From a virus, in IMG/VR virus record IMGVR_UViG_3300021356_000105, positions 1 to 30,572 of that record: a DNA stretch of 30,572 nt; one strand, given 5' to 3'. Each line of letters begins with the position of its first letter. Positions within the stretch are counted from its first letter, which is position 1. Position numbers and translations under genes: made by a program. This document shows, in pieces, positions 317-13,547 of the stretch. The notes below the pieces were generated by a model, which ran no database searches, was not told the DNA's origin, and was given only the letters and a program-made list of their open reading frames with translations.

Positions 317-679
317 TTAAAACTTGTAAAGTGACTGTTTACCGGGAACACGTTCCTTCTTGCTTTTGAGCTTTATGTTCGGCGTTTTGCCCCAGTGCTC
401 GATTGCTTCCTTTGTACGAATATCTTTGCCGTGTTCTTCCATTTGTCTATGGAAAGAGCGATGGCAAGAGCGATGGCAACATGCTAAGTTAGAAGAATCA
501 TTGTTATGCCTATCGAAGTCTATATGATGCCACAGCACACCATCTGAATGGTCGCCAGTGATTAGTTTCTCCGCTTCTATTTGTTCACCGCAAACATAGC
601 ACGCAGGCTGATACTGCATAGCAAGGACGTACAGGTGTTCACGGATGCGACGTATCTTAGAATGTACCTTGGTAGACAT
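317..679 (-). CDS. HNH-like homing/nicking endonuclease, 120 aa
   Basis: The protein has an N-terminal basic helix region followed by a zinc-binding Cys pair (C27-x-x-C30), a His-His core (H51-H52, in LWHHIDFDRHN), an Asn (N64) and a second Cys/His cluster (C67, C68, C72, H73). This order of Cys pair, HH, N, Cys pair is that of the HNH (beta-beta-alpha metal) nuclease fold. The basic C-terminus would suit DNA binding. Such free-standing HNH genes are common mobile passengers in T4-like phages. The ATG lacks a clear Shine-Dalgarno. It is divergent from the plus-strand HNH gene at 802; the two share the HNH architecture but little obvious sequence. Confidence 0.7.
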   Translation of the reverse strand: MSTKVHSKIRRIREHLYVLAMQYQPACYVCGEQIEAEKLITGDHSDGVLWHHIDFDRHNNDSSNLACCHRSCHRSFHRQMEEHGKDIRTKEAIEHWGKTPNIKLKSKKERVPGKQSLYKF

Positions 680-801: not shown

Positions 802-1359
802 ATGTTAGGTCTCAGAACACTCATACTAAACGCAGATTACCAGCCTAAGAACATTTTAAAGCTTTCTACTATTTCCGTAGAAGAAGCGTTGTCGGACTTT
901 TTCTCTGATAACTGTGTAGTCGTAGATACTTATGACAGAGCAGTAAAGACGATGAAAGTAGAAAACCGTATTGCTATACCATCAGTCATTGCCTACAAGC
1001 AGTACTTTCCAAGAATAGAAAAAGTTTCTTTAATAAAGCCAAATTTACTTTTGCGAGATGGGTACTCTTGTGTTTATTGCGATAAGCCGTTATCAGAAGA
1101 GTCTATGACGTTTGACCATTACAGACCAGCATCTCGTGGCGGAAGTACTTCATGGGATAACATTTTAGCATCTTGTAAAAAGTGCAATCACGATTATGGC
1201 GGAACTTCGGAAAAAAACAAAACACCAAAACATAAACCGTATGAGCCTTCTTACGGTAAGTTAGCAGCATTAAGAAGGCATCACGACATTGTTATCGACC
1301 ATGCTTCTTGGGAAAAGTGGTTAGGACCTTGGTACGCCAAGGTCCATACTAAATCTTAG
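802..1359 (+). CDS. HNH endonuclease, 185 aa; only plus-strand gene
   Basis: The HNH nuclease domain spans about residues 88-130: C90-x-x-C93, the catalytic D105-H106 (FDHYRPASRGG), N120 and C125-x-x-C128-N129. The N-terminal ~80 residues (LILNADYQP...) match the leader found in many phage and bacterial HNH proteins of the McrA-like group. This is the only gene on the plus strand. It runs head-on into regA, and the two stop codons overlap by 4 nt. A perfect 9-bp hairpin lies within its last codons. Its orientation suggests independent acquisition and expression. Its target is unknown: it could be a homing endonuclease or could degrade host DNA. Confidence 0.82.
   Translation: MLGLRTLILNADYQPKNILKLSTISVEEALSDFFSDNCVVVDTYDRAVKTMKVENRIAIPSVIAYKQYFPRIEKVSLIKPNLLLRDGYSCVYCDKPLSEESMTFDHYRPASRGGSTSWDNILASCKKCNHDYGGTSEKNKTPKHKPYEPSYGKLAALRRHHDIVIDHASWEKWLGPWYAKVHTKS
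1324..1345. terminator. perfect 9-bp hairpin at convergent gene ends
   Basis: GGACCTTGG pairs with CCAAGGTCC around a 4-base TACG loop. It lies inside the last codons of the HNH gene and just beyond the end of regA, where two transcription units converge. No run of T follows in either direction, so it may act as an RNA 3'-end stabiliser or weak bidirectional terminator rather than a classic intrinsic terminator. Confidence 0.5.
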
Positions 1360-3096: not shown

Positions 3097-3291
3097 CTAA
3101 GTAATGTCAAATAATATCATAGTAGCAAGCAAAAAACATAGTCCAACAAGAATAACTGAGGTAGTAGCACAAGCATTAACGTCATGTTCTCTTAACTGTA
3201 GTCGGTCCTTAAGTATTACATTTTCGTATTCTTCCTTTTCTAACTGTTTCGCTACAGTACAATCATTGCATTTGTGTTCGCACTTTGTCAT
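3097..3291 (-). CDS. small membrane protein with N-terminal Cys/His cluster, 64 aa
   Basis: I do not recognise this protein. The N-terminus carries C4, H6, C8 and C11, a possible metal-binding cluster. The middle (about 14-37) is a charged, helix-forming stretch, and residues 43-62 are a single hydrophobic membrane segment (ATTSVILVGLCFLLATMI). This suggests a C-terminally anchored protein with its metal cluster in the cytoplasm. It sits between clamp and clamp-loader genes; its start overlaps the gp45 stop. A second small Cys/His plus membrane-segment protein lies between gp46 and gp47. Confidence 0.68.
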   Translation of the reverse strand: MTKCEHKCNDCTVAKQLEKEEYENVILKDRLQLREHDVNACATTSVILVGLCFLLATMILFDIT

Positions 3292-3941
3292 TAAACACTT
3301 TCCGTGGCAATGTAATAAGCAATATTTTTTGTGCTCGATACAAACTTACTAATGCCTTGTGATGAAATGGTAACATCGTAATCGTTAGGCATCATCTTTA
3401 GATTTTCCAAACGAAAAACATAGTTTACGTCAGAACCACAATCACCAAGTGTAATACTAAAATCATTTGCTTCTGGGTTTTTGGCATCACATGCAACAAT
3501 CTTCAACTCACCTTCGTCACAACGGACAGCAAGATTAGGAAGCTGCAGTACGTTACAGGCACGCATAACTTTTTGCAAGTCATCATTGTTTAAACGAAAC
3601 TCAAGCGGAGAATCAGGAAGATTAATGTCTTTATCAGGCGCTGCAGTGATAAGGCTCTTATCTACATAACCATAACGGACTTTTGACTTTCCACTAGAGA
3701 TGTTTACATAGGTATCTTTAAAATCAAAGTCTGGGTTTTCAAGCAAACCAACTGTGCCCAGAAACTGATTCAGGTCGTAGATACCAAACGGTGTTGGAAA
3801 GTCATCATCAACAACAGCAGATGCCATAATGGTTTTTGCAGGCGATACTGTTCGCAACACATTACCTTCGTTAACCCATACACTCGGGTTAATCGTAGAA
3901 AAGTTTTTTAAGATATTCACAGATTCATTAGAAAGATTCAT
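3291..3941 (-). CDS. 45: sliding clamp (gp45)
   Basis: This is the DNA polymerase processivity clamp of T4 type, a trimeric ring that also activates late transcription with gp55. It begins MNLSNESVNILKNFSTINPS, closely like T4 gp45, and the two-domain clamp pattern follows. The chosen start at 3941 gives about 216 aa (T4 228) and has a strong AGGAGA site upstream. An upstream in-frame ATG at 3998 would add 19 unrelated residues without a ribosome site and is rejected. Position before gp44 and gp62 supports the call. Confidence 0.93.
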   Translation of the reverse strand: MNLSNESVNILKNFSTINPSVWVNEGNVLRTVSPAKTIMASAVVDDDFPTPFGIYDLNQFLGTVGLLENPDFDFKDTYVNISSGKSKVRYGYVDKSLITAAPDKDINLPDSPLEFRLNNDDLQKVMRACNVLQLPNLAVRCDEGELKIVACDAKNPEANDFSITLGDCGSDVNYVFRLENLKMMPNDYDVTISSQGISKFVSSTKNIAYYIATESV

Positions 3942-4001
3942 TTTATATTCTCCTATATTATAATGTACTATACTATCACAAAAATGTACGGGTAGCAAAG
4001 C

Positions 4002-4844
4002 TTATTTGATTTTCTGACTAGGATCCGCGGTAGCACTAGCACCTATTGTAGCAAGGTCTACAAGTGATCCACCAAAGAAATAAGAGCCCATGTGTACTAA
4101 CTTCATCCAAGGACACATCCATACTTTAATGTCAGCTTTTCTTGCCCATTGACAAAACATATAATCTTCTGAAAGATAACGTTTCGTGTCAGGATCAATA
4201 ATGCAATCAAAGTAAGCCATGATTTCTCTTGTGCCATCAAAGTTTGCAGTACGAACATGATCTGGCTTATAAGAAAATTCAGGATAAGCTTCTGCGTATT
4301 TGTCAAAGGCTTTACGTTGGATCATCATAAAACCTGTACCACCTTCAAGCACCTCAACTGGCTCGTTTAGAGCGATTTGATTTTGTCCACTTGCTGGATT
4401 AAAAACAAAGTCACCAACAAACTTGTTTAGGTTGTGTGGATTTTCATCAGCATGGCCTTGGTCTACTGCCTGTTTAATCTTTTCCCAAGCAATCGTCTTC
4501 TTAGGATAAGGACCGCAAACGATGTCTTTATCGCTGTCAGGGTCTGCAACGGCAGCCAATGCAAGAACATCGTTTGGGTCAAATCCAATATCACTATCAA
4601 TAAACATTAGATGTGTAAACTTTTCATTACGAAGAAACTCATCTACACAATAGTTTCTTGCACGAGTGATAAGTGATTCGTTGAACAGGTAAAAGAACTC
4701 AATATCAATTCCATAATGGGAAGCAAGTTTTGCTAAGTCAACACTTGACTTAGTATATTGCCCACTACATTGTCCTCCATACATAGGAGTAGCAACAAAG
4801 ATTTTTCGTTTTCTTAAATCACTTACATCAATTGATAATTCCAT
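4002..4844 (-). CDS. GT-A fold glycosyltransferase, 280 aa
   Basis: The N-terminus (KIFVATPMYGGQCSGQY) and a hydrophobic strand ending in a D83-S-D85 metal/sugar-nucleotide motif (LMFIDSDIGF) are those of GT-A glycosyltransferases. GGTGFM (168-173) and SEDYMFC (225-231), the latter giving a candidate catalytic acidic pair, follow in the usual order, with a conserved-looking LVHMGSYFFGG near the C-terminus. There is no signal peptide or membrane segment, so it acts in the cytoplasm. Similar proteins occur beside replication genes in marine T4-like phages. Given its neighbours, DNA (modified cytosine) is a plausible acceptor, but glycosylation of a protein or other acceptor cannot be excluded. 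AAGGAGA precedes the ATG. Confidence 0.8.
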   Translation of the reverse strand: MELSIDVSDLRKRKIFVATPMYGGQCSGQYTKSSVDLAKLASHYGIDIEFFYLFNESLITRARNYCVDEFLRNEKFTHLMFIDSDIGFDPNDVLALAAVADPDSDKDIVCGPYPKKTIAWEKIKQAVDQGHADENPHNLNKFVGDFVFNPASGQNQIALNEPVEVLEGGTGFMMIQRKAFDKYAEAYPEFSYKPDHVRTANFDGTREIMAYFDCIIDPDTKRYLSEDYMFCQWARKADIKVWMCPWMKLVHMGSYFFGGSLVDLATIGASATADPSQKIK

Positions 4845-4874
4845 AACATCTCCTTAATCAAATTAAAGTTTAAA

Positions 4875-5207
4875 CTAATCGCTTTTTAAAATTTTATGAG
4901 GCCTGTCGTCCTTACATGTACCTTTTGACATTTCATCTGCTAAACGCATCATGTTAAAGGTAGCATGGTGCAAATGATTTACACCAGATTCCGGATCTAC
5001 ATCTTCACCCTCATACCATGATAACAAATGCCGAAACAAACAGTCAACATGTTGCTGAGCAGACACACCACCTATCATATAGTTATATCGCTCATATTTG
5101 TTGGCTCCATACTCACATACTTCTGCTAAGCCACGCATTGCTTCTGGAAAAGTCATAACATAAGACAGTTGTCTTTTGCCATCATTATATCTCATTGCTT
5201 TACTCAT
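4875..5207 (-). CDS. DUF5664 dATP/dGTP diphosphohydrolase-like protein
   Basis: The sequence RYNDGKRQLSYV at residues 6-17, EYGANKYERYNY in the middle, and HVDCLFRHLLSWYEGE followed by NHLHHATFNMMRL form the recognisable pattern of the DUF5664 family, described in domain databases as dATP/dGTP diphosphohydrolase N-terminal domain. Conserved His and acidic residues would bind metal. At 110 aa it is a single domain. It overlaps the methyltransferase stop by 4 nt, placing it in the base-modification operon. A role in adjusting the dNTP pool is inferred; the substrate is not shown by sequence. Confidence 0.75.
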   Translation of the reverse strand: MSKAMRYNDGKRQLSYVMTFPEAMRGLAEVCEYGANKYERYNYMIGGVSAQQHVDCLFRHLLSWYEGEDVDPESGVNHLHHATFNMMRLADEMSKGTCKDDRPHKILKSD

Positions 5208-6409
5208 TGAATAAAACCTTCTAGAGAGTTATAAGAAGCATCCCATACTTTGTGCTCATGTTTATGATTATCTTGCAATAGCTGATTTGCTTTTATCATA
5301 GGTCTATCACCATTCAAATAACCAAGTACTTCAGTTGCCATATCTTTAGCAGTAGTAAAAGGTACGTTTTGGCAAACATGATTCAGATTTTTACTTGGAT
5401 TTAACAGTTCAAAATCTTGTGGCAATCCCATCATTCCCATACATTCACGATAAGTCAAAAATCTTTCTTCAACTGGATGTGTCATATTTCTGGGCAAGTG
5501 TCCTACAAAAGCTCCTGTATAGTCCTTTGGAACGTATAAGGCACGTGTCATAATACCTCCGCCTGCTTGTATTTTTTCATGCCTACGTTCACACTTATCT
5601 GCTTCTTTTTCCAAACCTTCTTTTCTAAAATATGCTGCAAGTTCAGGAAAGGTTATACCTTGCTTGCGAATGTAACCAGTAAGTTCGTATGAATGGTCCA
5701 ACTGATCCACAAATTCAGCATGAGTTAAGCCAGGATGCATATTATCCATGATATAAGTGTAATAAGGATTGTCACGAAGCGCTTTAGTATTTGTTAGTTC
5801 TTGCTGACTGTTACCTTGAATGCTATCAATAAAGTCCTTGATCTGAGGATAAGGTCTTTTATAGTAGTTCATTAAAGGAACATGATCTTTCTCTTTCCAA
5901 AAGAAATAGAAGGATCTCTGCCGGTATTGCGGCAATCCATGTAGTAGAGATTTTGTTTTATAAACAGTCATTGTATAACCGTTCTTTTTGCCAATCTCAA
6001 AAATCCTATCACGGATTTTCTTACCAGTGTTACCTGCAAATGTAGGAGCATTTTCACCCCAGAATACTTTTGGTTTAATGTTCTCCAAAACGTACTCGGC
6101 AGTCACTGCCATCCAATCATTTTTAGGATTGTCTGCACCTGAGTGATGACTCATTGTAGAAAGGCCAGCACAAGGGCATACTGTTGAAACAACGTCAACA
6201 CTTTCTAGTTTATTTGTTGGCTTTCTTTCATCGTTGTCCAAAACGTAATATGGAACGTTGTGGTTTTTGAACTCATAATGATTTAACAAATGAGAGTCGT
6301 TTTCTCCAAATACATCATAAGATGCAATCCATTTTGGTTTAGTTCCATACACTTCATCAGAAGCAAGTGAGATGCCTCCTATTAAAGGTATAATGCTCGC
6401 ATGATTCAT
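5204..6409 (-). CDS. divergent C5-cytosine DNA methyltransferase
   Basis: The motifs run in the order of C5-cytosine methyltransferases: an N-terminal motif I-like PLIGGIS (8-14), motif IV with the nucleophile P79-C80 (TVCPCAGLS), motif VI E119-N120-A-P, motif VIII QYRQRSFYFFW (161-171), then RFLTYRECMGMMGLPQDF (316-333) and NVPFTTAKDMATEVL (348-362) as motifs IX and X. It is about 401 aa and intact. Motif IV has Ala where most enzymes have Gln (PCQ), and motif VI has ENA for ENV. It overlaps its neighbours by 4 nt on both sides. It could methylate cytosine for self-marking, or act on hydroxymethylated DNA; the sequence cannot decide. Confidence 0.87.
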   Translation of the reverse strand: MNHASIIPLIGGISLASDEVYGTKPKWIASYDVFGENDSHLLNHYEFKNHNVPYYVLDNDERKPTNKLESVDVVSTVCPCAGLSTMSHHSGADNPKNDWMAVTAEYVLENIKPKVFWGENAPTFAGNTGKKIRDRIFEIGKKNGYTMTVYKTKSLLHGLPQYRQRSFYFFWKEKDHVPLMNYYKRPYPQIKDFIDSIQGNSQQELTNTKALRDNPYYTYIMDNMHPGLTHAEFVDQLDHSYELTGYIRKQGITFPELAAYFRKEGLEKEADKCERRHEKIQAGGGIMTRALYVPKDYTGAFVGHLPRNMTHPVEERFLTYRECMGMMGLPQDFELLNPSKNLNHVCQNVPFTTAKDMATEVLGYLNGDRPMIKANQLLQDNHKHEHKVWDASYNSLEGFIQ

Positions 6410-7281
6410 CTAGAAAAACCCCTCAATGTATTTGTTTTTTCCTGTTGACTAGATTTATAAGCCTTCTTCCATTGAATTGTGGCACCTAGTTTTTCAAGTC
6501 CACCCCACTCACCATTTTTTGCCACTTTAGTTTTAAGCGATACAAATTCTGGAAATTTTTGTTGTAAAAGTTTCATTGAGTTATTGTGTACATTTAATGT
6601 TCTGTATTCAGCACATCCACCGTCTGCCTGTGTTAGAGAAGGACGCACGCGATATCTGAAACTTATTCTATTAGGGTAACCTAATGTTAAACATTGCAAG
6701 AGTATAAAGTAATCTTGAGCACATTTTAATGAAGTAAAATCAATTTCATCTTTAGGAAAAGTTTTACCATTATAAAAATGATTCGTGGTTTGTCTCCAGC
6801 AATCATTGTAATCTTCATCCCTTGGTGGATTCCAAGTAACTTCCAAACCACAAGTTACACATTCATCTAACCAAGAATCCATTGTGTCCATCATTTCGTC
6901 GAAGTATTTTTCATAACCTTCACGATTAACATAAGTGTTAATTTCAGTATTTACTAACGCATGACTATCAGGCTCAGAAGGTCGACGAGTATAAACAAAC
7001 TGCATAATGTCGTCATCGAAAACTGCGTACTTTTGATCGCCTGCTTGATAAGCAATCCATTTTCTTGTAGGACTCAAACCATAATCAAGAGGATTAGCAC
7101 CTTCTGGTTCCTTTCCTTGGCAAGGACATACTAATACATTATATCCTTTTTCTCTTAATATTTCTTCTTCATCTGCAGCCACAACTAACACAGCACGCTC
7201 TTTCCATTTATCTGGAAGATAGTCGTATGTGAGTTGTGAGTCTACTCTTCGATAAGTTGGTATGTATAAAGTTTCAATCAT
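6406..7281 (-). CDS. TET-associated-glycosyltransferase-like protein (putative DNA GT)
   Basis: The N-terminus LYIPTYRRVDSQLTYDYLP and a YAVFDDDIMQFV strand with D89-D-D91 fit GT-A glycosyltransferases, and the overall pattern resembles the TET-associated glycosyltransferase (TAGT) group linked to sugar transfer onto modified bases in phage DNA. The remaining sequence has many Trp and Cys residues. The start at 7281 is chosen because AGGA lies 9 nt upstream; the ATG at 7302 overlaps gp42 and lacks a site. It lies between dCMP hydroxymethylase and the C5 methyltransferase. Family assignment is from memory of motif pattern and needs a profile search. Confidence 0.68.
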   Translation of the reverse strand: MIETLYIPTYRRVDSQLTYDYLPDKWKERAVLVVAADEEEILREKGYNVLVCPCQGKEPEGANPLDYGLSPTRKWIAYQAGDQKYAVFDDDIMQFVYTRRPSEPDSHALVNTEINTYVNREGYEKYFDEMMDTMDSWLDECVTCGLEVTWNPPRDEDYNDCWRQTTNHFYNGKTFPKDEIDFTSLKCAQDYFILLQCLTLGYPNRISFRYRVRPSLTQADGGCAEYRTLNVHNNSMKLLQQKFPEFVSLKTKVAKNGEWGGLEKLGATIQWKKAYKSSQQEKTNTLRGFSR

Positions 7282-7292
7282 ATTTTTTTTTC

Positions 7293-7982
7293 CTATAACC
7301 ATCCTATAGATTCACCGTATGTGTAGTTATCTTTTTTTTCGACCAAATGAAAATGTCGTTCATATACATGAAGTGAGCCGACATTCCAAATAAGATCACC
7401 ACATTCTACATCAAGATCTTTTGCTAACATTTCTTGAACATGCAACTGCCAAGCACGATCATTACGATAACCAAACACAACATCATTACTACGCATGTTT
7501 ACAAAGCTCATGAGCTTATCATTGCGTACAAAGTACTGTACGGTATTTGTACAGATAAAATCTGACATGCCATTCTTGTTATAATCCTCTTGTATCTCAG
7601 GCCTAGTGTATATCATAATAGCACGTCGAGAGTTTGGATCATTTTTTAGTTGTTTAAGACAGTTATCATACTGACTGTAGTTATCTTCTGACCAAACACA
7701 CCAACCGTAGTTTGACTGAATGAAACCATACGGATCGGCGATTGCTCGCCAGATTGCTGGTACAGGTTCTTCCATATCATCAACATTACGTGATTGTGTT
7801 TCATACCAAGCAAGTTCTTTCTGCACATACTCTTTGTTGTACTTTCCGAATATGCATGGTTCATCAGCTAAGAACTGAGCACCAATCAGTTCAATAGTAT
7901 TTACACCTGACTTATCAGGCGTAAATTCTTTCATTGCATATTTAGCACGAAACTTATTTCGTATTACTTTCACATTATTCAT
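7293..7982 (-). CDS. 42: deoxycytidylate 5-hydroxymethyltransferase (gp42)
   Basis: This enzyme of the thymidylate synthase fold converts dCMP to 5-hydroxymethyl-dCMP using methylene-tetrahydrofolate. Long stretches match T4 gp42 as recalled: IELIGAQFLADEP, SNYGWCVWSEDNYSQYD, SRRAIMIYTRP, CTNTVQYFVR, NMRSNDVVFGYRND and IWNVGSLHVY. C144 corresponds to the catalytic C148 of T4. D175 corresponds to D179 of T4, the residue that sets dCMP rather than dUMP specificity, where thymidylate synthase has Asn. At 229 aa it is near the T4 length (246). It overlaps the NMAD1 gene by 8 nt. Its presence predicts hydroxymethylcytosine in the virion DNA. Confidence 0.95.
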   Translation of the reverse strand: MNNVKVIRNKFRAKYAMKEFTPDKSGVNTIELIGAQFLADEPCIFGKYNKEYVQKELAWYETQSRNVDDMEEPVPAIWRAIADPYGFIQSNYGWCVWSEDNYSQYDNCLKQLKNDPNSRRAIMIYTRPEIQEDYNKNGMSDFICTNTVQYFVRNDKLMSFVNMRSNDVVFGYRNDRAWQLHVQEMLAKDLDVECGDLIWNVGSLHVYERHFHLVEKKDNYTYGESIGWL

Positions 7983-8343
7983 TTTTCAAATATTTCCAGT
8001 TTTTCTCGTAATACCAATCGTCTTTTTTAACCTTGTTAAACATATCACGATTGGTATCCTGACCTTCCATCTGACCACGTATGTATGATACGGCAAAGGA
8101 CGCATAGTTAATCAAGTCTTTGTAAGTATCTTCAAGTGATTCAAACTTAGGATCACCTTCGGATTCAAGAAGTGACTGGGCACGCAATAACTTTTGCCAG
8201 ATCATATCATGGATAGTATCAACACCACGACGATAATGCATTGCTTGTACGATGTTGGAGTTTGGATTTTGATAATCCTGAGATTTTTTGTTTTGCAAGT
8301 CAATACATTCTTGCAGAACTTTTACAGATTCACGTTCGTTCAT
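7975..8343 (-). CDS. nucleotide modification associated domain 1 (DUF1599) protein
   Basis: The sequence KKSQDYQNPNSN, then WQKLLRAQSLLESEG and YKDLINYASFAVSYIRGQ, gives the pattern of DUF1599 (NMAD1), an all-helical domain resembling MazG-type nucleotide hydrolases and associated with hypermodified pyrimidine synthesis in phages. The ATG at 8343 is preferred, with GGGA about 9 nt upstream; the TTG at 8358 is not needed. Product length is about 122 aa. It overlaps dCMP hydroxymethylase, which supports a role in preparing or clearing nucleotides for that pathway. The precise reaction is unknown. Confidence 0.75.
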   Translation of the reverse strand: MNERESVKVLQECIDLQNKKSQDYQNPNSNIVQAMHYRRGVDTIHDMIWQKLLRAQSLLESEGDPKFESLEDTYKDLINYASFAVSYIRGQMEGQDTNRDMFNKVKKDDWYYEKNWKYLKNE

Positions 8344-8348
8344 ATTAG

Positions 8349-8762
8349 TTAATCCCAAATTAATTGCAATTGTTCTGGTTCATAGTTTAAAAAATTTGTA
8401 AGATTATTATATTTGTTTCCTTTCTCATCATGAGTATTTACCGGACACCCTGTTTTTGCTGATAAAAAAACCCCCTCACCCTGTCTATATTTTTCTTTAT
8501 TTCTATTATACTTTCTTTTTTTGTCTGAACAATCAACACATATACCTTGGTTTCTTTTACTATTCACGTCACATTTATAAAAGTCTAATCCATGTTTCTC
8601 TTCTCCACATTTAGTACATTTCAATATTGTTGGTCTGTTTTCCATAAGTCTACCATTTTCAAAATCAATTGAATTGCTGTTTTTCAAATGTTCAGTTGAG
8701 CGACTAGTGACTAAATTTTGTTGTTTGACTTTCTTCAATTTTTTCATCCTGTAATATTTCAT
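8349..8762 (-). CDS. Cys4 zinc-finger protein of unknown function
   Basis: About 137 aa. A basic N-terminus (MKKLKKVKQQN) is followed by C49-x-x-C52 and C75-x-x-C78 with a GLDFYK spacer, a treble-clef or zinc-ribbon layout. A very basic stretch (KKRKYNRNKEKYRQG) comes next. Endonuclease VII-type phage nucleases begin similarly, but the catalytic His-Asn residues are not visible, so a nuclease call is not supported; DNA or RNA binding is plausible. The ATG at 8762 has TTAGGA just upstream, but the promoter at 8777-8805 would leave an mRNA leader of only about 8 nt, so starts at 8747 or further in (MENRPT) are possible. Confidence 0.68.
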   Translation of the reverse strand: MKYYRMKKLKKVKQQNLVTSRSTEHLKNSNSIDFENGRLMENRPTILKCTKCGEEKHGLDFYKCDVNSKRNQGICVDCSDKKRKYNRNKEKYRQGEGVFLSAKTGCPVNTHDEKGNKYNNLTNFLNYEPEQLQLIWD

Positions 8763-8776
8763 CAAATGTCCTAACT

Positions 8777-8805
8777 ATTCTATCAAGTGTCAGGCGGTTT
8801 GTCAA
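8777..8805 (-). promoter_or_regulatory. sigma70 promoter, TTGACA-17-TAGAAT
   Basis: On the minus strand TTGACA (8800-8805) is followed after exactly 17 nt by TAGAAT (8777-8782). That is 6/6 and 5/6 matches to the bacterial sigma70 consensus in an intergenic gap between the MazG-like gene and the Cys4 gene. Transcription would start near 8770 and enter the block of base-modification genes. The very short leader is odd. Confidence 0.82.
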
Positions 8806-8809
8806 CAGT

Positions 8810-9235
8810 CTATACAGTTCTGTTTAAATCGTTTTCCCACGTTGTTAGTTTGCCGTGATTATTCTGATGATAAGGTGGTTTCCATCCTTCTGGTTTAACA
8901 AGATCTGGCAGACCAAGCGGATTGGGACGTTCTTTCTTAACACCAACATTCTTGTTCATGTTTGCCTTTAAAACTTCATCCCATGCCTTATGTGCATCTA
9001 CGCCAAACGCATCAAGTGTACCAATAGCAACAACACACAGATCAATCAAACCATCGATTACTTCTTCAGAATCATAACTTTTCCAAGCGGCCATTGTTTC
9101 ATTCAGTTCTTCTTCAAGAAAGTTAAGACGAAACTCTAAAAACTCATCAAAGTTATCTTCATTGTTTTCCATCCATTCATGCACGCCATACTTCTCATGC
9201 ATCTTGTAAATATCTTCAACCCAATCATGCGACAT
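8810..9235 (-). CDS. MazG-like nucleoside triphosphate pyrophosphohydrolase
   Basis: The core LEEELNETMAAW at about residues 35-46, then EEVIDGLIDLCVVAIGTLDAFG, follows the metal-binding EExxE...ExxD pattern of the all-alpha NTP pyrophosphatase superfamily (MazG, phage dCTPase/dUTPase type). The 141-aa length fits a single-domain phage MazG. It lies just upstream of the hydroxymethylcytosine genes, and T4 needs a dCTPase (gp56) to keep dCTP out of DNA, so this could serve that role; general MazG function against (p)ppGpp or noncanonical dNTPs is the alternative. The start overlaps the deformylase gene, with AGGAGA as ribosome site. Confidence 0.82.
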   Translation of the reverse strand: MSHDWVEDIYKMHEKYGVHEWMENNEDNFDEFLEFRLNFLEEELNETMAAWKSYDSEEVIDGLIDLCVVAIGTLDAFGVDAHKAWDEVLKANMNKNVGVKKERPNPLGLPDLVKPEGWKPPYHQNNHGKLTTWENDLNRTV

Positions 9236-12901: not shown

Positions 12902-13095
12902 TCTTCAACATACACATAAGTTATAGGCATAGCCTGTGGACCCACAACGAGAGATTCTACTTTTTTCACAATGTAGTTAACACCTTTTATGTTAATACTC
13001 TCATTCACTATAAAATCTTCCACATTCATATCAATACCATCTTGATAATGATTTACAAAATGGCCGTTTACGAATAGATGGATATAGCCTTTCAT
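12898..13095 (-). CDS. hypothetical protein, 65 aa, beta-rich
   Basis: The sequence alternates hydrophobic and polar residues (YIHLFVNGHFVNHY, INIKGVNYIVKKVESL, ITYVYVEE), suggesting a small beta-barrel or sandwich without Cys or membrane segments. It overlaps both dCMP deaminase and gp47 by 4 nt (ATGA junctions), so it is translated as part of that operon. No family recognised; it could be a small accessory factor for either neighbour. Confidence 0.66.
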   Translation of the reverse strand: MKGYIHLFVNGHFVNHYQDGIDMNVEDFIVNESINIKGVNYIVKKVESLVVGPQAMPITYVYVEE

Positions 13096-13547
13096 TCGTT
13101 TATCCTAACTAAGTCAACACTTGCTTCATTAAACATAGAACGTGAATGATTAAAAGATTCCGTCCATCTAACATCGTCAGCTGAAGTTTCATATTCGCAA
13201 ATGACTCTACGAATGCCTACTTGTATGATGCCCTTTGCACATTCACAACAAGGTGGCAATCCATAAACGTACAGCGTCATATCTCTTAACGAAACACCTG
13301 TATAGACTGCATTAAAAATACAGTTCAATTCAGCATGAATAGTATACTTAGATTTAGTAACACTATCTTGCATTCTTTGAGGATCATCGCGAATCCATTT
13401 GGGAAAGCCGTTATATCCAGTAGACAGAACTCGCCTATCACCTGGGTGCACTGCAACTGCACCTACTTTTCTACGAGGATCCTTACTCCAAGTAGAAACA
13501 TCCTGTGCTATCTTCATAAAGCGCAGATCCCACTTATCACTTTTCAT
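13092..13547 (-). CDS. cd: deoxycytidylate deaminase
   Basis: This zinc enzyme turns dCMP into dUMP, feeding dTMP synthesis. It has the catalytic H71-A-E73 and the zinc ligands C100 and C103 in PPCCEC (98-103), with the surrounding TIHAELNCIFNA and KVGAVAV patterns of the family. At 151 aa it is shorter than T4 dCMP deaminase (193), lacking the extra zinc insert. Together with dCMP hydroxymethylase it competes for dCMP and would set the balance between thymidine and hydroxymethylcytosine precursors. It is one base from the gp55 gene. Confidence 0.94.
   Translation of the reverse strand: MKSDKWDLRFMKIAQDVSTWSKDPRRKVGAVAVHPGDRRVLSTGYNGFPKWIRDDPQRMQDSVTKSKYTIHAELNCIFNAVYTGVSLRDMTLYVYGLPPCCECAKGIIQVGIRRVICEYETSADDVRWTESFNHSRSMFNEASVDLVRINE

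Follow-up and report, generated by a model that had tools for sequence, protein, structure and literature searches.

We analysed a stretch of 30,572 nt from IMG/VR virus record IMGVR_UViG_3300021356_000105 (hereafter the window), which harbors on its minus strand, from position 8358 down to 4002, a block of genes for NMAD1, a protein of thymidylate synthase (TS) fold (gp42), a TAGT-type glycosyltransferase (GT1), a DNA cytosine C5-methyltransferase (C5-MTase)-like enzyme, a DUF5664 protein, and a glycosyltransferase of GT-A fold (GT2). The C5-MTase-like gene (5204..6409, minus strand), whose product is called the MTase here, is the most interesting gene of the block, and its family represents a departure from the known C5-MTases. 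The MTase is a dedicated partner of the deoxycytidine monophosphate (dCMP) hydroxymethylase, whichever decoration of hydroxymethylcytosine (hmC) follows. The block as a whole probably makes and decorates hmC DNA, whereby the MTase would carry out C5 chemistry. Since the source record is a 30.6-kb virus fragment, absences were checked in longer relatives. The window proteins were identified by six-frame reading together with three profile libraries, and all genes that a preliminary description had named in the block were found on the minus strand and confirmed by profile searches.

Linkage of the MTase family to the dCMP hydroxymethylase

The gene for gp42 is located at 7293..7982 on the minus strand (phrog_160, E 3e-55). 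A comparison of the gp42-family profile with solved structures yielded the T4 dCMP hydroxymethylase (1b49) with an E-value of 9e-113, whereas ordinary TSs were matched at 1e-18 only. The protein shares 58% identity with the enzyme of a Klebsiella Jiaodavirus and combines the TS fold and the Cys nucleophile with an Asp that replaces the dUMP-specific Asn. As proposed in the preliminary description, Cys144 and Asp175 mark gp42 as a dCMP hydroxymethylase: both residues are invariant among the aligned Asp-type homologues, whereas ordinary phage TSs (phiM12, Cr30, RHph_I1_18) carry Asn at the Asp175 position. The assignment of gp42 as a dCMP hydroxymethylase and not a TS is strongly supported by these sequence comparisons. 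Homologues of gp42 are annotated as TS in many phage records, but with T4 gp42 as by far the best match and with the Asp exchange, it is hardly credible that gp42 is a TS and the cytosine of the phage DNA plain, and we rejected this reading. The S-TIM54 protein annotated as ThyA (L019:7117-7959) likewise carries Asp at the position corresponding to Asn177; it is probably of the dCMP type rather than a TS.

Two scans of IMG/VR with the MTase alignment led to the identification of at least 584 and at least 588 confirmed relatives, respectively, and linkage was analysed for the best 80 relatives of each scan. Among these, a hydroxymethylase gene was present in 35/35 and 31/32 of the MTase loci with at least 6 kb of upstream sequence, which corresponds to 63 of 64 distinct contigs, the exception being L190. 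The hydroxymethylases in these loci always carry the Asp and never the Asn, and wherever else the hydroxymethylase was missing from an MTase locus, the upstream sequence was shorter than 6 kb. Both the restriction to the best 80 and the search motifs tilt the sample toward conserved members, and the contigs are fragments. Larger records with the MTase gave the same picture, with an Asp-type homologue in 14/14 that is the sole TS homologue in 13 of them. As a control, 80 loci of canonical viral C5-MTases (63 of which span 10 kb or more) were inspected, and none had any TS homologue. Within 84,980 bacterial and archaeal genomes there were only 12 MTase loci, all on contigs of metagenome-assembled genomes; where 4.6 kb or more of upstream sequence was available, an Asp-type gene was found in 8/8, and the gene order of several loci is that of the phages. 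A paper that links a C5-MTase family to the dCMP hydroxymethylase was not found, which is not proof that none exists. Overall, these data suggest that the MTase represents a distinct phage family with a one-way link to the hydroxymethylase. The preliminary description had mentioned it in passing as a possible extra methylation step; the enzyme is real, but its near confinement to hmC phages and its rebuilt cofactor site were underestimated.

The order MazG-NMAD1-hydroxymethylase-MTase-GT2-gp45 is common to most loci, and it might be that the linkage reflects a gene order passed down within one T4-like lineage, without functional meaning. However, the genes between hydroxymethylase and MTase have been replaced many times, and the association holds in different arrangements: in S-TIM-type cyanophages the linkage is kept on the opposite strand, with the Asp in a protein annotated as ThyA; Pseudoalteromonas phage XG4 as well as G008 have other arrangements, and the Asp-type enzyme is still there; in Bacillus phage G, which also has an Asn-type homologue, the Asp-type one lies some 13 kb away from gp301, a distant MTase relative. 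Moreover, phages that have GT2-gp45 but lack an Asp-type hydroxymethylase have no such MTase in that region. We therefore regard inherited order as an improbable explanation.

Catalytic and cofactor sites of the MTase

The MTase (PF00145, E 3e-22) contains the motifs PLIGG/CPCAGLS/ENAP/QxRxR/CQNVP. In the alignment, the catalytic residues are kept, namely Cys80 in 57/58, Glu119 in 58/58, Asn120 in 57/58, and Gln161, Arg163 and Arg165 in 58/58 sequences, so that the enzyme has probably retained its chemistry at cytosine C6. The PC of motif IV, the ENx of motif VI, the QxRxR of motif VIII and the C5-MTase fold are thus all in place, whereas the S-adenosylmethionine (SAM) site, defined by FxGxGG in motif I, the ribose-binding acid and GN in motif X, is not. 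The AlphaFold model of the MTase (pLDDT 94) matches M.HhaI at E 1e-13. Residues 190-281, which lie at the position of the recognition domain, are largely helical in this model, whereas the recognition domain of M.HhaI is largely beta at this position. Motif I is of the PLIGG type in 58/58 sequences, compared to FxGxGG-like motifs in 71/78 canonical phage enzymes, and the family has no conserved acid for binding of the SAM ribose. The position of M.HhaI Asn304 is occupied by Gln in 57/58 sequences (Gln347 in the window MTase) compared to Asn in 65/78 canonical enzymes; in CmoX the corresponding residue is Arg350, which reads carboxy-SAM (PMC12783734). In a 105-kb relative, the intact MTase gene is directly preceded by a second copy (L002:11644-12891), which lacks the catalytic Cys, has EAAP in place of ENAP and is possibly a structural partner.

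From the altered cofactor site, we tentatively suggest that the family may be a new class of DNA-cytosine enzyme, working in hmC phages only and departing from SAM methylation in its cofactor or its reaction. Such a reaction may be the hydroxymethylation of leftover cytosine in DNA, or the replacement or removal of the hydroxymethyl group of hmC. In the suggested pathway, gp42 would make hm-dCMP, which would be built into the DNA, and after replication GT1 would add a sugar to hmC, as its family and position indicate. The MTase would perform a C5 reaction on DNA cytosines that all hmC phages have in common: it would either finish residual unreplaced cytosine or target the hydroxymethyl group of hmC. 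Its sequence specificity would probably be low, and the reaction may differ from canonical SAM methylation. Isolated C5-MTases catalyze comparable side reactions in vitro: M.HhaI adds formaldehyde to cytosine and M.SssI-type enzymes couple thiols to hmC (PMC7176277), and release of the hydroxymethyl group as formaldehyde has also been described (PMC11347137). Therefore, both the finishing of leftover cytosine and an action on hmC are chemically reasonable.

Several observations weigh against a dedicated enzyme with a new reaction. The motif III Asp, which contacts the adenine, is kept in 53/58 sequences, and SAM-like binding is possible. Of the 39 loci centred on gp42 that extend 8 kb or more downstream, only 22 contain the MTase; being found in about half of the gp42 relatives, it is therefore not needed for hmC itself. 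Furthermore, many loci share T4-like synteny and ancestry, so that the linkage counts overstate independence.

It could also be that the MTase is an ordinary SAM-dependent enzyme which forms 5-methylcytosine on cytosines that were not replaced by hmC, as a belt-and-braces protection. This would agree with the intact motifs IV, VI and VIII and the mostly kept motif III Asp, and residual cytosine is plausible because the gp56 dCTPase was not detected in most relatives. However, canonical viral C5-MTases were found beside hydroxymethylases in 0/80 cases, and the MTase departs from them in motif I, in the ribose-binding acid and at the motif X position. In addition, C5-MTases occur in Tevenvirinae of groups XV/XVI, for which no non-canonical-base enzymes are known (PMC8056088). 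We thus consider an ordinary methyltransferase rather unlikely. A CmoX-type carboxymethyltransferase that uses carboxy-SAM came into view because the CmoX structure 8YF3 ranks among the top profile matches and has the fold in common, and because CmoX itself shows that a phage C5-MTase can be repurposed for hypermodification (PMC12783734). The MTase, however, has CPC instead of SPPC and Gln instead of the required Arg350, and CmoA was not found in 14 related records, with a positive E. coli control; this very improbable route was rejected.

If hmC replaces cytosine, a C5-MTase would be without work, yet hundreds of wild phages keep the MTase beside the hydroxymethylase and vary the sugars around it. 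Either the natural replacement by hmC is incomplete and is backed up, or an unknown enzyme acts on hmC in DNA, and both options would change the understanding of how phage DNA is armoured against restriction and CRISPR. An hmC-directed C5 enzyme, if true, would offer epigenetics a useful tool. The culturable carriers S-TIM5, XG4 and phage G make the question testable.

Probable decoration of hmC and organization of the locus

The genes located between hydroxymethylase and MTase form variable cassettes. In 24 of 54 loci a T4-type alpha-glucosyltransferase (AGT; PF11440, E 2e-77) is found there, which often overlaps the MTase start by 4 nt; it is therefore very likely that the DNA of these phages contains hmC. 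Other cassettes consist of TAGT, GT4-like or GT10-like enzymes, an unclassified family of glycosyltransferase size with or without a UDP-galactopyranose mutase, an epimerase with a dehydrogenase-like protein, a HAD-like protein with a nucleotidyltransferase, or modules with pyridoxal phosphate (PLP) enzymes. Mapped on the MTase tree, a quick tree with some long branches, the cassette classes changed at least 16 times. The tabulated cassettes provide candidates for new decorations of hmC. The PLP-enzyme cassette (phrog_7093 and unknown families) occurs at L014:4573-10001 and also in L072, L102, L103, L123, L125 and L129, and suggests an amino-acid-type hypermodification of hmC. A UDP-galactopyranose mutase family gene stands beside a gene of glycosyltransferase size between hydroxymethylase and MTase in L091, L106, L115 and L127, which makes galactofuranosyl-hmC a candidate, and an unusual sugar on hmC is a candidate for L054, L059 and L061, whose cassette contains a nucleotide-sugar epimerase and a dehydrogenase-like gene. 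The hmC operon of XG4 includes a nucleotidyltransferase-phosphotransferase fusion of 559 aa (L020:1329-3008), which resembles Thanatos TH1_060 with 561 aa in its size and domain content (PMC12838424). In the 105-kb relative, an Apyc1-like (anti-Pycsar) metallo-beta-lactamase (L002:10889-11677; PF23023, 5e-19) is located within the hmC operon between GT1 and MTase.

In the window, this position is occupied by GT1 (6406..7302, minus strand; phrog_842, 5e-33), a presumed hmC glycosyltransferase. GT1 matches PF20691 (1e-10) with 41.9 bits at a cut-off of 27.5, over the catalytic domain, and falls into the same family as TAGT and the T6 beta-glucosyl-HMC-alpha-glucosyltransferase. A distant relative with 22% identity follows gp42 in the Klebsiella phage LilPanda with a 4-nt overlap. 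From family and position, GT1 is likely an hmC glycosyltransferase. A search of the sequences of solved structures with GT1 as query and with the GT2 profile gave no useful match. GT2 (4002..4844, minus strand; phrog_1574, 3e-64) adjoins gp45, and its AlphaFold model (pLDDT 88) matches GT-A structures, with STIV A197 as the best one. It precedes gp45 in many phages with and without hmC, among them phiM12, Cr30 and RHph_I1_18, which have a TS of the Asn type only, and DLP6 without any TS. Because of this occurrence in phages with ordinary or no TS, GT2 is not tied to hmC. We have set it aside as an hmC glycosyltransferase, and the earlier assumption that both glycosyltransferases decorate hmC had to be given up. 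Synthesis of hmC by a gp42 homologue and its glycosylation by an enzyme other than the T4 alpha- and beta-glucosyltransferases are supported, but the claim of an enzyme set of its own was overstated, since the GT1 type is already known from the T6 family and from the LilPanda enzyme adjoining gp42, and relatives carry a T4-type AGT in the slot of GT1. The part of the block for hmC synthesis and GT1 is another member of an already known system type.

The adjacency of TAGT and C5-MTase would also fit a TET route, in which the MTase makes 5-methylcytosine, a dioxygenase oxidises it and TAGT glycosylates the product. However, hmC is already supplied by gp42 and most relatives carry other glycosyltransferases, and no TET/JBP protein was matched in 14 related records, although this search was also silent in control genomes. 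This route was rejected as extremely improbable.

For the clearance of dCTP, NMAD1 (DUF1599; 7975..8358, minus strand; PF07659, 1e-6), a protein of the all-alpha NTP-pyrophosphatase type, is a candidate enzyme. The NMAD families were reportedly first outlined by Iyer and colleagues in 2013. NMAD1 adjoins the hydroxymethylase in many loci and was detected by phmmer in 67 loci, whereas PF07659 itself matches in 2 of 15 relatives. Among these relatives, T4-type gp56 was limited to XG4 and G008, with a weak match in phage G, and NMAD1 has no sequence similarity to the T4-type dCTPase, so that its candidacy as a gp56 substitute has this presence/absence pattern as its sole support. Together with the MazG/PRA-PH-type nucleotide pyrophosphohydrolase (8810..9235, minus strand; PF01503, 1e-9; phrog_671), NMAD1 would trim the dCTP pool. 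MazG lies mostly upstream of NMAD1 and hydroxymethylase in relatives, and the conserved neighbourhood takes in MazG on the upstream and the gp45 sliding clamp (3291..3998, minus strand; PF09116, 3e-17; order conserved) on the downstream side.

The block had been described as near-gapless with overlaps of 4-8 nt. Overlaps were indeed found, reaching up to 10 nt (NMAD1/gp42, 8; gp42/GT1, 10; GT1/MTase, 4; MTase/DUF5664, 4), but a gap of 30 nt separates DUF5664 from GT2, which is followed by gp45 after 3 nt. The DUF5664 protein (dATP/dGTP diphosphohydrolase N-terminal family; 4875..5207, minus strand; PF18909, 8e-25) is an optional member, present in 20 of 154 related loci. The sigma70-like promoter reported at 8777..8805 on the minus strand (TTGACA-17-TAGAAT with extended -10 TG), with an 11/12 match, was recovered in a site scan as the best of 28 sites in the region, whereby the total number of such sites is not above that in shuffled sequence. 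A small Cys-rich protein weakly similar to endonuclease VII families (8349..8765, minus strand; phrog_1035, E 5e-5) was not found in the relatives searched. Genes outside the block were named from sequence inspection and synteny with annotated phages. They include, also on the minus strand, gp45, the clamp loader, gp46/47, terminase and capsid genes, as well as a dCMP deaminase (13092..13547, minus strand; motif HAE...CxxC and family clustering), which in relatives mostly directly follows the hydroxymethylase. Sequence inspection revealed two HNH-like frames at the left end (317-679, minus strand; 802-1359, plus strand). The window phage is T4-like, and no named phage was matched by the locus in megablast.

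Comparison with known systems

TET-MTase-TAGT systems likewise combine TAGT and C5-MTase, but hmC comes from a dCMP hydroxymethylase in the window and no TET was matched, with the controls silent too. The DNA cytosine C5-carboxymethyltransferase CmoX of phage S-B43 (8YF3) shares with the MTase the C5-MTase fold, an altered motif X position and a hypermodification route; the MTase differs by Gln instead of Arg at the switch, CPC instead of SPPC, the lack of CmoA and its linkage to the hydroxymethylase. With the canonical M.HhaI and M.HaeIII it has the fold and the catalytic Cys/Glu/Arg in common, but it carries PLIGG in motif I, no conserved ribose acid and CQNVP as motif X, and in the predicted model a helical segment replaces the recognition domain. 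The gp42-glycosyltransferase pair of LilPanda is similar in that a 58% identical gp42 is followed, with the 4-nt overlap, by a distantly related glycosyltransferase, whereas gp56 is kept there and no MTase is present in the 16.7-kb region read. Compared to the hmC system of T4 (gp42, gp56, alpha- and beta-glucosyltransferase), the window has a GT1 of the TAGT/phrog_842 type, NMAD1 and MazG beside gp42, no gp56 found in its nearest relatives and the extra C5-MTase-like partner. Both systems share the hydroxymethylase family, a post-replicative glycosyltransferase and the replication neighbours gp45/44/62/regA, and relatives of the window carry the T4-type AGT itself.

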